A stretch of DNA of 64,000 nucleotides from Clostridia bacterium (GTDB lineage Bacteria; Bacillota; Clostridia; Oscillospirales; CAG-272): positions 1 to 64,000 of the forward strand of contig JAFVXI010000006.1 in the NCBI GenBank assembly GCA_017501245.1, in the 5' to 3' direction. The translations under genes were made by a program, and so were the position numbers. Below, one piece after another: positions 24,568-28,399 of the stretch. The stretch's first letter is position 1. Every line of letters begins with the position of its first letter. Below the pieces are notes generated by a model that was given only the letters and a program-made list of their open reading frames with translations, was not told where the DNA came from and did no database searches.

Positions 24568-25938
24568 TCAGAGCTTAGAGATGATATCTCTTGCAACGTG
24601 TACGCCGCTTGCGGAGGCGTGGGAGAGCGAGTGGGTAATGCCCGAGCCGTCGCCGATGACGTATAGGCCCTCGTGGCAGGATTCGAGGCTCTCGTTTACC
24701 TCGACCTCCATATTATAGAACTTGACCTCGACGCCGTAGAGCAGGGTGTCGTCGTTTGCCGTTCCGGGGGCAACCTTGTCGAGCGCGTAGATCATCTCGA
24801 TGATGCCGTCGAGGATCCTCTTGGGCAAAACGAGGCTGAGGTCGCCGGGGGTCGCCTTGAGCGTCGGGGTGATGAACGCCTCCTCTATCCTCTTGGGCGT
24901 GGATCTCTGACCTCTGATGAGGTCGCCGAAGCGCTGAACGATAACGCCGCCGCCCAGCATATTCGACAGGCGCGCGATAGACTCGCCGTAGCCGTTAGAG
25001 TCCTTAAACGGCTCGGAAAAATGCTTTGCAACCAGCAGGGCAAAGTTGGTGTTTTGTGTCTGGCGCTTCGGGTCCTCGTAGCTATGGCCGTTGACGGTGA
25101 TGATGCCGTTGGTGTTTTCGCTGACGACCTCGCCCCTCGGATTCATACAGAAGGTGCGCACCTTGTCGCCGTATTTCGGAGTTTTATAAACTATCTTGCT
25201 CTCGTATAGCTCGTCGGTTATATGCGAAAAGACCTCGGAGGGCAGCTCGACCCTGACGCCGATGTCGACCCTGTTAGACCTCGTGGGGATGGCAAGCTCG
25301 CGCGAGACCCTCTCCATCCATTTGCTGCCTATCCTGCCGACAGAGATGATGCATCTTTTCGCCGTGTAGCTCTCGTGCTTCGTCCTCACGGCATAGCCGC
25401 CATCAACTATCTCGACCGTCTCAACGGGAGTATCAAAGAAGAAGTCGACCTTTGACTTAAGGTGGTTATAGAGGTTTTCTAAAACGACGTAGTTAACGTC
25501 CGTGCCGAGGTGGCGCACCGAGGCGTCGAGCAGGTGCAGATCGTGGCGGATGCACTCACGCTTAAACTTCGTGCCCGCCGTGGAGTAGAGCTTTGTGCCC
25601 TCACCGCCAAAGGCGAGGTTAATGCCGTCGACGTAGTTCATTAACTCGAGCGCACGCTCCTTGCCGACATATTCAAAGAGGGTGCCGCCGAAGTCGTTGG
25701 TTATGTTATATTTTCCGTCCGAAAATGCGCCCGCACCGCCAAATCCGCTCATTATCGAGCAGCTCTTACACTTGATGCAGCTCTTTATCTTGTCGCCGTC
25801 GATGGGGCAGTGCCTCTTGTCGAGCCTGTGTCCCGCCTCGAAAACGGCAACTCGTACCTTGCTATTGCTTTTCGTCAGCTCGTAAGCCGAGAAGATGCCT
25901 CCCGGGCCCGCTCCGACGATTATCACGTCGTAATTCAT
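24568..25938 (-). CDS. FAD-dependent dehydrogenase (COG2509-like)
   Basis: A 456-residue flavoprotein. The N terminus MNYDVIIVGAGPGGIFSAYEL is the FAD/NAD dinucleotide-binding fold. A cysteine-rich segment CIKCKSCSIMSGFGGAGAFS follows, typical of uncharacterised COG2509 dehydrogenases. Near the end, GLYVIGDGSGITHSLSHASA is the second FAD contact. The electron acceptor is unknown. ATG at 25938 lies 5 bases after GGAGG; longer starts run into the riboswitch. Control by a guanine-class riboswitch implies a role linked to purines. Confidence 0.85.
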   Translation of the reverse strand: MNYDVIIVGAGPGGIFSAYELTKSNSKVRVAVFEAGHRLDKRHCPIDGDKIKSCIKCKSCSIMSGFGGAGAFSDGKYNITNDFGGTLFEYVGKERALELMNYVDGINLAFGGEGTKLYSTAGTKFKRECIRHDLHLLDASVRHLGTDVNYVVLENLYNHLKSKVDFFFDTPVETVEIVDGGYAVRTKHESYTAKRCIISVGRIGSKWMERVSRELAIPTRSNRVDIGVRVELPSEVFSHITDELYESKIVYKTPKYGDKVRTFCMNPRGEVVSENTNGIITVNGHSYEDPKRQTQNTNFALLVAKHFSEPFKDSNGYGESIARLSNMLGGGVIVQRFGDLIRGQRSTPKRIEEAFITPTLKATPGDLSLVLPKRILDGIIEMIYALDKVAPGTANDDTLLYGVEVKFYNMEVEVNESLESCHEGLYVIGDGSGITHSLSHASASGVHVARDIISKL

Positions 25939-25952
25939 CATTTCCTCCAAAT

Positions 25953-26030
25953 AAAAAAGGCTGACCTTTGTAGTCAACCATTCTCGGTAGTTGGTAGAAA
26001 CGCTCAACCTTATTATGAGCATATACAAAG
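25953..26030 (-). promoter_or_regulatory. Purine (guanine-class) riboswitch with overlapping terminator
   Basis: On the minus strand the aptamer spans 26030 to 25966. P1 is CTTTGTA/TACAAAG. P2 has stem GCTCA/TGAGC with loop AATAAGG. J2/3 is GTTTCTACC. P3 is AACTA/TGGTT with loop CCGAGAA. J3/1 is GAC, with C at the specificity position (guanine type). The GG of loop 2 can pair with the CC of loop 3, as in xpt. Directly after, GGTTGAC (25973-25979) can pair with GTCAGCC (25959-25965), followed by TTTTTT, to make a terminator. The left arm of that terminator is part of P3 and J3/1, so aptamer and terminator are mutually exclusive. Confidence 0.92.
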
Positions 26031-26039
26031 TTCATTTCT

Positions 26040-26068
26040 ATTATACTATATTAAAGGCGTGATTTCAA
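26040..26068 (-). promoter_or_regulatory. Promoter of the riboswitch-flavoprotein transcript
   Basis: On the minus strand TTGAAA (26063-26068) and TATAAT (26040-26045) are 17 bases apart. Transcription would begin a few bases before the P1 stem of the riboswitch. Confidence 0.85.
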
Positions 26069-26148
26069 GCCCCGAGGCGTTTTTCTTTCCTTTATATATT
26101 ATATAACTCCCCCGCCGCCCCCCTTTTTTCCGTGCGGTATGTCCGAAT

Positions 26149-26189
26149 GTGACCTCGTCACAGAATTATCCTCACGGAATGGGTATAAT
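26149..26189 (+). promoter_or_regulatory. Crp/Fnr-type operator and -10 box of thioredoxin
   Basis: The palindrome GTGAC-CTC-GTCAC (26149-26161) is centred at 26155, and TATAAT starts at 26184, 29 bases later. There is no recognisable -35 box; the palindrome takes its place at about -41 from the expected start, the class II activator position. The same arrangement recurs before the superoxide reductase gene. Confidence 0.75.
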
Positions 26190-26244
26190 AAAAGCGTAAG
26201 ATAAAGAGCAAGCCTCTTATCACTAAACGAAAAGGAGATTAAAA

Positions 26245-26553
26245 ATGTCGGTTTTAAGAATTGGAAAAGATAATTTTGATATAGTAGAGAAGAGCGATAA
26301 GCCCGTCCTCTTGGACTTCTACGCAGATTGGTGCGGCCCCTGCCGTATGGTCGGTCCCATCGTCGAGGAGATAGCGGAGGAAAACCCCGAGTATCTCGTC
26401 TGCAAGATAAACGTGGATAAGGAGCCTGAGCTTGCGGGTGAGTTCGGCGTGTTCAGCATCCCGACGCTCGTTGTTATGAAGGGCGGCGAGGTCGTCAAAA
26501 AGGCGGCCGGCGCCAAGCCCAAGGCAGCTATCCTCGCTCTCATCGAGGGCTGA
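26245..26553 (+). CDS. trxA: Thioredoxin
   Basis: A 102-residue cytosolic disulfide reductase with active site WCGPC in FYADWCGPCRMVGPI. The cis-Pro lies in FSIPTLVVMKGGE. Size and fold are ordinary. AAGGAG precedes the ATG. It stands alone between the flavoprotein promoter (divergent) and the Crp/Fnr gene (convergent), and its promoter carries the GTGAC-N3-GTCAC operator. Confidence 0.95.
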   Translation: MSVLRIGKDNFDIVEKSDKPVLLDFYADWCGPCRMVGPIVEEIAEENPEYLVCKINVDKEPELAGEFGVFSIPTLVVMKGGEVVKKAAGAKPKAAILALIEG

Positions 26554-26555
26554 GA

Positions 26556-26593
26556 AAAAAGGATCGAGCCTGCGCCACAGTCAGCGCAGGCTC
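26556..26593. terminator. Terminator between thioredoxin and the Crp/Fnr gene
   Basis: GAGCCTGCGC (26566-26575) pairs perfectly with GCGCAGGCTC (26584-26593). On the minus strand it is followed after five bases by TTTTTT, so it best ends the Crp/Fnr transcript; it may also stop thioredoxin read-through. Confidence 0.75.
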
Positions 26594-26637
26594 ACCCACA
26601 AGCACGGTAAATAAATATACTTTAGCGACGCTCTATG

Positions 26638-27312
26638 TCAGCGTGTCAAATCTCTGAGCCTCTTTTTATCAACCAGCTTGACGCCACGCCTCGAGACCTC
26701 GACTATGCCCTCCGAGGCAAAGTACTTTAGCATCCTTGAAACGACCTCTCTTGCCGAGCCCATATATTTTGCTATCTGCTCGTGCGTGAGGGCGACGGTG
26801 TCGCTGCCTGTCTTTGCAGTCTCATCAAGAAGGAAGATGGCAAGGCGCTTGTCCATGCTCATAAAGAGGATCTGCTGCATGACCCACATAACGTCGGAGA
26901 AGCGGGAGAGCGCCGTCTCAAGGGCAAATATCTTTGCCTCCGGCATACGCAAAGCAAGAGCCTCGTAGGCGCAGCCGCCGACAACGACGCATTCGCTGTC
27001 CTCCTCAGAGTCGACGTAGACGTCAAAGGTTATAGTGCTCAGCACGCAGGATGCCGAGAGCATACACATCTCACCGGGAAAGATGCGGTAGAGCGTTATC
27101 TCCTTTCCCTCGTCGGAGAGGATATAGAGCCTTAAGCATCCGCTCTTAACGAATATGATGCCGGTGCATTCGGCTCCGTCATGCACGTTCATCCCCTTTG
27201 GAAATTTAACGAACTGCGAGGTGCGCAAAAAGGTTTCCCTTTCCGCCTCCGTCAGCTTGTCGTAAAAGGGAAAGTTGTTCTGAAACAGTAATTCAATCTC
27301 GGATCTGTTCAT
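26638..27312 (-). CDS. Crp/Fnr-family transcriptional regulator
   Basis: A 224-residue regulator. The N-terminal cyclic-nucleotide-like beta-roll includes FPKGMNVHDGAECTGIIFVK and LRLYILSDEGKEITLYRIFPGE. The C-terminal winged helix-turn-helix reads LTHEQIAKYMGSAREVVSRM. No N-terminal Fnr-type Cys cluster is present; scattered cysteines lie at the centre (MCMLSASCVL). ATG at 27312 follows GAGGCAG; 27324 is an alternative. It is flanked on both sides by genes whose promoters share a GTGAC-N3-GTCAC palindrome, so it probably activates them. Confidence 0.92.
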   Translation of the reverse strand: MNRSEIELLFQNNFPFYDKLTEAERETFLRTSQFVKFPKGMNVHDGAECTGIIFVKSGCLRLYILSDEGKEITLYRIFPGEMCMLSASCVLSTITFDVYVDSEEDSECVVVGGCAYEALALRMPEAKIFALETALSRFSDVMWVMQQILFMSMDKRLAIFLLDETAKTGSDTVALTHEQIAKYMGSAREVVSRMLKYFASEGIVEVSRRGVKLVDKKRLRDLTR

Positions 27313-27327
27313 TTTCTGCCTCATAAG

Positions 27328-27342
27328 TCACCGATACGGTGA
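27328..27342 (-). promoter_or_regulatory. Inverted repeat in the leader of the Crp/Fnr gene
   Basis: TCACCGATACGGTGA forms TCACC-GATAC-GGTGA just downstream of the predicted start of transcription and just upstream of the ribosome binding site. It could be an autoregulatory operator or an mRNA hairpin. It is not the same as the GTGAC-N3-GTCAC site. Confidence 0.45.
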
Positions 27343-27360
27343 AAGTTATATTATACTTAT

Positions 27361-27389
27361 AATATAACACTCTTTTGAAATTATGTCAA
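27361..27389 (-). promoter_or_regulatory. Promoter of the Crp/Fnr gene
   Basis: On the minus strand TTGACA (27384-27389) and TATATT (27361-27366) are 17 bases apart. It is divergent from the superoxide reductase promoter; the shared palindrome at 27406-27418 lies about 58 bases upstream of its expected start site. Confidence 0.85.
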
Positions 27390-27405
27390 GTCGGAGATAA
27401 AAACC

Positions 27406-27446
27406 GTGACTAAGTCACTGAAACGGCAGAGAAAATACGCTATAAT
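27406..27446 (+). promoter_or_regulatory. Crp/Fnr-type operator and -10 box of the superoxide reductase operon
   Basis: The palindrome GTGAC-TAA-GTCAC (27406-27418) is centred at 27412, and TATAAT starts at 27441, exactly 29 bases later, as at thioredoxin. No -35 box is visible at the right distance, which fits dependence on an activator. Confidence 0.78.
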
Positions 27447-27482
27447 AAAACCATCAAAGATAAACATAAGGAGATAATCAAA

Positions 27483-27863
27483 ATGTCTGAAAGCAAGTTT
27501 TATAGATGTGAGAGATGCGGCAACATCGCAGGTAAGATCAAGGATTCGGGTGTGCCTATGGTATGCTGCGGAGAAAAGATGAAGAAGCTTGAGCCCGGCG
27601 TCGTCGAGGCAAGCCACGAGAAGCATATCCCCGTCGTCAGCGTCGAGGGAGATAAGGTCAAGGTCGTTGTCGGCTCGGTCGAGCATCCTATGGCGCCCGA
27701 GCACAGCATCGAGTGGATCTATCTTGAAACCGACAAGGGCGGCCAGCGCAAAAACCTCGCCCCCGGTGAGGCTCCCGTAGCCCTCTTCGCCCTCGCAGGC
27801 GAGAAGCCCGTAGCGGTATATGCTTATTGCAATCTTCACGGCCTTTGGAAGGCTGACGTCTGA
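27483..27863 (+). CDS. dfx: Desulfoferrodoxin (superoxide reductase)
   Basis: A 126-residue protein that reduces superoxide to peroxide without making oxygen. The N-terminal desulforedoxin domain binds iron through YRCERCGNIAG and MVCCGEKM. The C-terminal centre II has the four His and one Cys ligands in EKHIPVV, VEHPMAPEHSIEW and CNLHGLW. It heads an operon with ferritin and rubredoxin, the latter being the usual electron donor. Confidence 0.95.
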   Translation: MSESKFYRCERCGNIAGKIKDSGVPMVCCGEKMKKLEPGVVEASHEKHIPVVSVEGDKVKVVVGSVEHPMAPEHSIEWIYLETDKGGQRKNLAPGEAPVALFALAGEKPVAVYAYCNLHGLWKADV

Positions 27864-27886
27864 TCAGAATAAGGAGAAGGAAAACA

Positions 27887-28399
27887 ATGATGGATAAAAG
27901 AGTTCACGAGCTATTAAACCAGCAGATAAACAAGGAGCTTTACTCCGCTTATCTCTATCTCGACTTTTCAAACTACTTTTCGAGAGTGGGTCTTGACGGC
28001 TTCGCAAACTGGTATATGATCCAGGCGCAGGAGGAGCGTGACCACGCAATGCTCTTCTATCAGTACCTCCAGAATGAAAACCAGGTAGTGACCCTCGACG
28101 CCGTCGCAAAGCCCGACAAGGTGTTTGACTGTCATATGGACGTCCTTAAGGCGGGGCTTGAGCACGAGGAGTACGTAACCTCGCTCATCCACGACATCTA
28201 TTCCGCCGCCCACGACGTGCGCGACTACCGTGCGATGCAGTTCCTCGACTGGTTCGTCAAGGAGCAGGGCGAGGAGGAGACCAACGCCAACGACCTCATC
28301 TCCAAGATGGAGCTTTTCGGCTCCGATCCCAAGGGATTGTATATGCTGAATTCCGAGCTTGCGGCACGTGTCTACACCGCACCCTCGCTCGTACTTTAA
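27887..28399 (+). CDS. ftnA: Ferritin (FtnA type)
   Basis: A 170-residue four-helix iron-storage protein. Ferroxidase residues lie in QINKELYSAYLYLD and QAQEERDHAMLF, and a late pair in EQGEEETNANDLI. Length is typical. GGAGAAGG precedes two successive ATGs (27887 and 27890). Co-transcription with superoxide reductase suggests removal of free iron as part of the same oxygen defence. Confidence 0.95.
   Translation: MMDKRVHELLNQQINKELYSAYLYLDFSNYFSRVGLDGFANWYMIQAQEERDHAMLFYQYLQNENQVVTLDAVAKPDKVFDCHMDVLKAGLEHEEYVTSLIHDIYSAAHDVRDYRAMQFLDWFVKEQGEEETNANDLISKMELFGSDPKGLYMLNSELAARVYTAPSLVL

Follow-up and report, generated by a model that had tools for sequence, protein, structure and literature searches.

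In the window, the 64,000-nucleotide stretch of clostridial DNA analysed here, a short leader with a promoter, a purine aptamer and an intrinsic terminator precedes a gene for an FAD-dependent oxidoreductase on the minus strand (Table 1). The preliminary description had placed this leader at 25953-26068 (-), and the coordinates proved exact, with all three elements inside them. The encoded protein scores 50 bits against PF21688 (Pfam cut-off 27), and we take it to belong to COG2509. Its nearest solved relative by sequence similarity is 3NLC (VP0956; E 7.8e-17 over residues 141-452), a protein of 549 residues compared with 456 in the window, which was deposited as uncharacterised. Across 32 aligned proteins, with identities down to 40%, Cys44, Cys54, Cys57, and Cys60 never vary, a conservation that points to a metal or Fe-S site or to redox disulphides. 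Near the switch, at 26245-28399, are genes for a thioredoxin (assigned with Pfam) and for desulfoferrodoxin-like and ferritin-like proteins (assigned by eye). A ferritin-like gene is also found near the homologue in locus L002.

Table 1. Features of the leader and its gene in the window, ordered by position
Feature	Position	Strand	Basis
FAD-dependent oxidoreductase gene, 456 aa	24568..25938	-	protein 24571-25938 matches PF21688 and Pyr_redox_2
Ribosome binding site GGAGG	25944..25948	-	sequence
U-tract TTTTTT	25953..25958	-	directly 3' of terminator stem
Intrinsic terminator stem-loop, 8 pairs	25959..25979	-	terminator scan and folding
Purine aptamer, P1 to P1'	25966..26030	-	RF00167 match; best fold at 71, 74, and 77 nt
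J3/1, A73 C74; C74 (25973) is the guanine-specificity base	25973..25974	-	sequence
P3 hairpin with loop L3, CC at 25987-25986	25975..25993	-	sequence, RF00167, folding
J2/3 GUUUCUAC, G46-C53, including U47 and U51	25994..26001	-	sequence, RF00167
P2 hairpin with loop L2, GG at 26009-26008	26002..26020	-	sequence, RF00167, folding
Promoter -10 element TATAAT	26040..26045	-	same TTGAAA-17-TATAAT site, whole site 26068-26040
Promoter -35 element TTGAAA	26063..26068	-	promoter scan, TTGAAA-17-TATAAT, 11/12 consensus matches

The Rfam covariance model of the purine riboswitch (RF00167) matches 25951-26048 (-) over its full length with 64.3 bits (cut-off 37, E 6.6e-9), and a guanine-type riboswitch at this position is as good as certain from the sequence. 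The guanine-type core claimed in the preliminary description, which had proposed this search, is present: the J2/3 GUUUCUAC, the GG and CC bases for the loop-loop contact of L2 and L3, readable from the sequence alone, and C74. P1 consists of seven pairs, 26030-26024 with 25972-25966 (C15-A21 with U75-G81, in what we take to be the xpt numbering), and P3 of six, with one G-U pair near L3. The scan of 25900-26260 also returned a weaker promoter-like site at 26040-26012 (9/12); this interval holds two promoter-like sites against a mean of 0.8 in shuffled sequence, and one terminator-like site against 0.3. Judging from the usual spacing to the -10 element, transcription presumably starts around 26033, just 5' of P1. 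Because the likely start lies within a few bases of P1, the transcript ahead of the gene is almost entirely switch.

In its pocket bases U22, U47, U51, A52, C53, and C74 the window aptamer agrees with the classical leaders included in the alignment table, and position 73 is A. U22, U51, and C74 are described as ligand contacts (PMC9295807; this and the other articles are cited here from excerpts). Guanine is the likely ligand of the window aptamer. We considered the guanine-II and xanthine-II classes, in which J2-3 carries an insertion of one and two bases, respectively, with U51G and a J3-1 insertion in addition in xanthine-II (PMC9295807). Both were rejected for the window, where J2/3 has no insertion and U51 is kept.

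The terminator stem pairs 25979-25972 with 25966-25959 (G68-U75 with G81-C88) around the loop ACAAA. Its left arm is composed of the P3 3' strand, J3/1 and U75, its loop is A76-A80 from the P1 3' strand, and its right arm begins at G81. The left arm had been read earlier as GGTTGAC at 25979-25973, built from P3 and J3/1, which is exact. Only seven bases separate the end of P1' from the U-tract, making the window switch very compact. Since the terminator arm uses the aptamer strands P3', J3/1 and U75, the aptamer and the terminator are mutually exclusive, so that bound ligand should give read-through. The ON direction predicted in the preliminary description thus stands on the anatomy, and the leaders of relatives described below strengthen it.

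Cofolding of the aptamer and terminator, also suggested there, favoured the aptamer at transcript lengths of 71, 74, and 77 nt, where its minimum-energy folds have -16.3 to -18.3 kcal/mol; at 80, 83, and 86 nt the best fold is the terminator, with -19.4 to -21.8 kcal/mol. At 86 nt the terminator has -21.8 kcal/mol and the forced aptamer -18.3 kcal/mol, a gap of 3.5 kcal/mol that ligand binding could bridge; these energies exclude the ligand and the loop-loop contact, both of which would favour the aptamer. In the proposed mechanism, RNA polymerase would start a few bases upstream of P1. In ligand-free RNA, the P3 3' strand, J3/1 and U75 would pair with G81-C88 and form the terminator before the enzyme gene. 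With guanine (or hypoxanthine or xanthine) bound, J3/1 and P1 would be locked in the aptamer, the terminator arm would be occupied, and transcription would read through. The weakest point of this mechanism is the timing. RNA polymerase covers a dozen or so nascent bases, and because the 3' arm of the terminator directly follows P1', the enzyme may arrive at the U-tract with P1 still buried. P1 may emerge only while the U-tract is being transcribed, and the switch would need a polymerase pause or very fast folding.

The preliminary description had contrasted guanine riboswitches, mostly OFF, with the adenine pbuE riboswitch, which is ON. There are precedents for guanine ON-switches: the guanine-II riboswitches of Paenibacillus are predicted to be ON (PMC9295807), and an engineered chimera of the xpt aptamer and the pbuE platform is ON with about 14-fold induction as cited in PMC7707468. 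Guanine-I riboswitches (RF00167) share with the window the three-way junction, J2/3, C74 and the GG/CC loop-loop bases. Those whose direction is given in the excerpts repress, whereas the window terminator is made from the aptamer, no antiterminator was seen, and the target is non-classical. Terminator formation in the pbuE riboswitch of Bacillus subtilis disrupts P1 and P3, proceeding through J3/1 (PMC7707468). The pbuE switch is ON by direct competition, as the window switch would be, with a terminator from the P3 3' strand and J3/1, but the window has C74 where pbuE has U74 and lacks a P4 hairpin. The P1 3' strand of the window forms mostly the terminator loop rather than its stem, so the strand exchange through P1 in pbuE is not matched. 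The window platform is therefore more compact than that of pbuE and may work similarly without sharing it in full, possibly with different kinetics.

The xpt/pbuE chimera also combines a guanine/hypoxanthine-type aptamer with an ON platform, but it is engineered and its platform was altered to avoid invading the aptamer, whereas the overlap in the window is natural. In such chimeras a weak P3 pair close to L3 aided switching with the xpt aptamer and was insufficient with that of yxjA (PMC7707468). The guanine-II and xanthine-II riboswitches of Paenibacillus are, like the window switch, relatives of guanine riboswitches with predicted ON control, and terminator stems overlapping the aptamer have been described for xanthine-II (PMC9295807); the window differs in having the plain guanine-I joints. 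Among the titles and abstract openings of mostly non-subscription literature that we searched, there was no paper on a riboswitch before this flavoenzyme family or on a natural guanine-I ON-switch. The aptamer class and the switching principle are known; the natural combination and the targets appear to be new.

The close relatives of the window gene come from clostridial metagenome assemblies. A survey of its homologues for the same leader, as the preliminary description had recommended, did find it, with a patchy distribution. Among the best 80 of 571 relatives from the protein search (77-84% identity), ten have an RF00167 match over the cut-off directly upstream of the gene, in every case ending 24-82 nt before it, and the 80 loci, 531,607 bases in all, contain no further match. 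An exact-word search also returned ten, with L012 replacing L025. As the other 70 of these 80 have no RF00167 match over the cut-off, the enzyme works without the leader. The window's own genome (assembly 73% complete) contains the single match at 25951-26048. Across the order, with stricter filters that lose weak matches, RF00167 was found in 53 of 394 genomes. A strong homologue of the enzyme (E <= 1e-130) is present in 112 of the 394, and five of these, including the window's own, have RF00167 directly before the gene (G000, G232, G350, G256, and G158). In the 36 genomes of the window's genus, the leader precedes the gene in the window's own genome and in G001, G002, and G011. A second subfamily of the same flavoproteins also carries the leader (G105, G091, and G331; PF21688 confirmed for L153).

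When presence of the leader was mapped on a quickly built tree of 104 proteins, 13 changes were required, compared with a mean of 17.6 in shuffles, and one of 500 shuffles was as low. The leader is thus scattered with some clustering, having been gained or lost repeatedly. Inspection by eye showed a broken aptamer upstream of position 3001 in L012 (most of P2 missing, P3 and terminator kept), a degenerate one upstream of position 3001 in L061, and one apparently interrupted by some 140 inserted bases, within or close to L3 (L096:1501-1760). Two tandem TPP riboswitch aptamers were also seen, at L050:4850-5109.

We compared 100 leaders with one script that scored whether a terminator arm lies inside the aptamer. 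They form a non-random sample, drawn from capped lists, of the best-scoring RF00167 loci, the enzyme homologues and 20 hand-picked stretches, from which a match in coding sequence (L124) had been removed before counting. Ninety-five were labelled by target gene, mostly by eye from N-termini and clustering (xpt, purE, guaB, guaA, and purF by eye only); Pfam was used to verify ten representatives and NCBIfam to verify six. The overlap was found in 15 of 20 leaders of the window's flavoenzyme family (12/17 and 3/3 in the two subfamilies), a set that includes L012 although it has no RF00167 match above the cut-off. It was also found before genes for guanine-deaminase-like proteins (3/7), MATE transporters (2/2), uridine-kinase-like proteins (2/4) and YgjV-like proteins (2/4), so that 24 of 37 leaders of these non-classical targets combined have it; this count includes L087, scored as ON with a doubtful hairpin whose loop is 38 nt. 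By the same script, none of 58 leaders of classical guanine-repressed genes has a terminator arm inside the aptamer (NCS2 permease 0/19, xpt 0/15, Bmp lipoprotein 0/12, purE 0/6, guaB 0/4, purF 0/1, and guaA 0/1), and neither has any of the five unlabelled leaders. The difference between the flavoenzyme family and the classical leaders has a Fisher p of 3.5e-12, calculated on related sequences that are not independent.

A terminator overlapping by chance was rejected, since aptamers joined to downstream parts of repressed leaders gave an overlap in 20 of 1120 combinations (1.8%). With downstream parts of all leaders the frequency was 91/494 (18%), because the ON leaders have similar terminator arms. 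These arms pair mainly with aptamer positions 65-77, and of the 20 ON leaders in this register, 14 pair C74 with a terminator G. Own arms leave fewer positions unpaired than foreign arms (93% against 78% paired), a weak comparison as the own arms were pre-chosen as best hairpins. The terminator extends into P1 in L010, L012, and L056. Assuming a 7-base L3, P3 has six pairs in 16 of 19 flavoenzyme-family leaders, whereas 40 of 54 repressed leaders have seven; it contains 2.4 and 3.3 G-C pairs, respectively (p 0.004). Among the five flavoenzyme-family leaders scored without an overlapping terminator, L025, L084, and L086 have a hairpin further downstream and L041 and L053 have none.

Several leaders differ in the pocket. 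Position 73 is U in L025, L078, L084, L086, L088, L094, and L095, which precede genes of the flavoenzyme family or YgjV/kinase genes; most are also changed at position 54 and the other pocket bases are intact. The U73 aptamers are possibly pocket variants. A73G in L041, L153, and L161 is less telling because it also occurs before a classical xpt gene (L244).

Guanine-deaminase-like genes stand behind purine aptamers at L140, L142, L147, L154, L155, L162, and L174. Three of these seven proteins were scored, with TIGR02967 as the best model at 323-364 bits, below its NCBIfam cut-off of 375. Guanine switching on its own breakdown makes sense and fits the ON design before such genes. Purine aptamers also precede genes for a YgjV-like membrane protein, a uridine-kinase-like protein or both at L085, L087, L088, L094, L095, L096, L139, and L171 (PF10688 matched for L088 and PF00485 for L085, the remaining labels being by eye). 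At L169:394-2199 a MATE transporter fused to a cytidylate-kinase-like domain lies behind a purine aptamer with an ON-type terminator.

Neighbouring genes were sought by tblastn in 139 loci, as ORF calling had missed the enzyme gene in 32 of 140, where overlapping ORFs on the opposite strand were probably called instead. In the fetched flanks, xpt lies near the enzyme gene in nine of the 139 loci, within 300 nt in six and on the same strand within 70 nt in five. A rough estimate, used in place of an empirical null, is 0.5-0.9 loci expected if there are one or two xpt genes per 2-Mb genome, and four of the loci (L011, L023, L033, and L034) fall in one open clade of eight rows. A xanthine/uracil-permease-like gene (by eye) was found in three flanks, MATE in five and Bmp in one, and seeds for AzgA, guanine deaminase, kinase, purE, guaB, and guaA had no match near the enzyme gene in the 139 loci. 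Clustering of neighbours from ORF calling (107 loci) gave an ABC ATPase in 14 (by eye), xpt in six, MATE in six and a glycosidase-like protein in five (by eye). Thus, xpt is prominent but not unique among the neighbours. Of the nine xpt loci, L056 and L290 carry the leader and the other seven lack it, so the enzyme's tie to purine salvage stands largely apart from the RNA. The preliminary description had taken the RNA as a clue that the enzyme handles or responds to purines. The co-designed targets and the xpt neighbourhood support this, and from them we infer a purine role of the flavoenzyme as a good working hypothesis.

The leader is probably a guanine-class riboswitch that acts on transcription and turns its gene on, and ON control of the enzyme gene is well supported by the anatomy and the comparison with relatives. 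The usual OFF arrangement, in which ligand binding favours termination, would agree with the common repression by guanine riboswitches (PMC9295807), including those of C. difficile, all four of which are OFF (PMC11477304), and nupR of B. thuringiensis, also OFF (PMC9430930). However, the window terminator needs the strands that hold the ligand, it is the best fold at full length, and its overlap with the aptamer is absent from the sampled leaders of repressed genes. On this anatomy and the 0/58 contrast we set the OFF arrangement aside as very unlikely. A leader that no longer switches, with a terminator that forms regardless of ligand or expression set by the promoter alone, is also highly improbable: the patchy occurrence among the best 80 of 571 homologues, the broken aptamers at L012 and L061 and the very little space from aptamer to U-tract would fit such a relic, but the window has intact stems and intact bases for the pocket and the loop-loop contact, and across leaders the terminator arms of the ON type can pair with the aptamer strand.

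A different question is the ligand. The ON design may be right with a natural ligand other than guanine: xanthine, hypoxanthine, a nucleoside or an oxidised purine (8-oxoguanine, for example). This aptamer scaffold has changed its ligand several times (PMC9295807), relatives carry A73U, A73G, or changes at position 54, and the neighbouring thioredoxin and by-eye ferritin-like and desulfoferrodoxin-like genes form an oxidative-stress setting. We nevertheless regard another ligand as unlikely for the window, which has a plain guanine-I core, and the guanine-deaminase-like genes share the ON design in three of seven leaders.

With a guanine-responsive ON-switch as the preferred reading, the leader comparison and the xpt neighbourhood suggest a guanine-excess regulon that ties the flavoenzyme to purines. 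We tentatively propose, giving the whole somewhat less than an even chance, that guanine-type ON-riboswitches in the window's clostridial order control such a regulon (a guanine-deaminase-like enzyme, a MATE exporter, a uridine-kinase-like kinase with a YgjV-like membrane protein, and two flavoenzyme subfamilies), that the flavoenzyme is a purine-metabolic redox enzyme, and that the A73U subgroup represents another variant of the pocket, one whose preference among ligands has shifted. If so, one aptamer would serve related bacteria for control under starvation as well as under overflow. These leaders would form a natural group with the same guanine-I pocket but the opposite sign, placed before genes for guanine-deaminase-like enzymes, exporters and flavoenzymes. 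For an uncharacterised flavoprotein family, strongly represented in 112 of the order's 394 genomes, purines would be a concrete candidate class of substrates.
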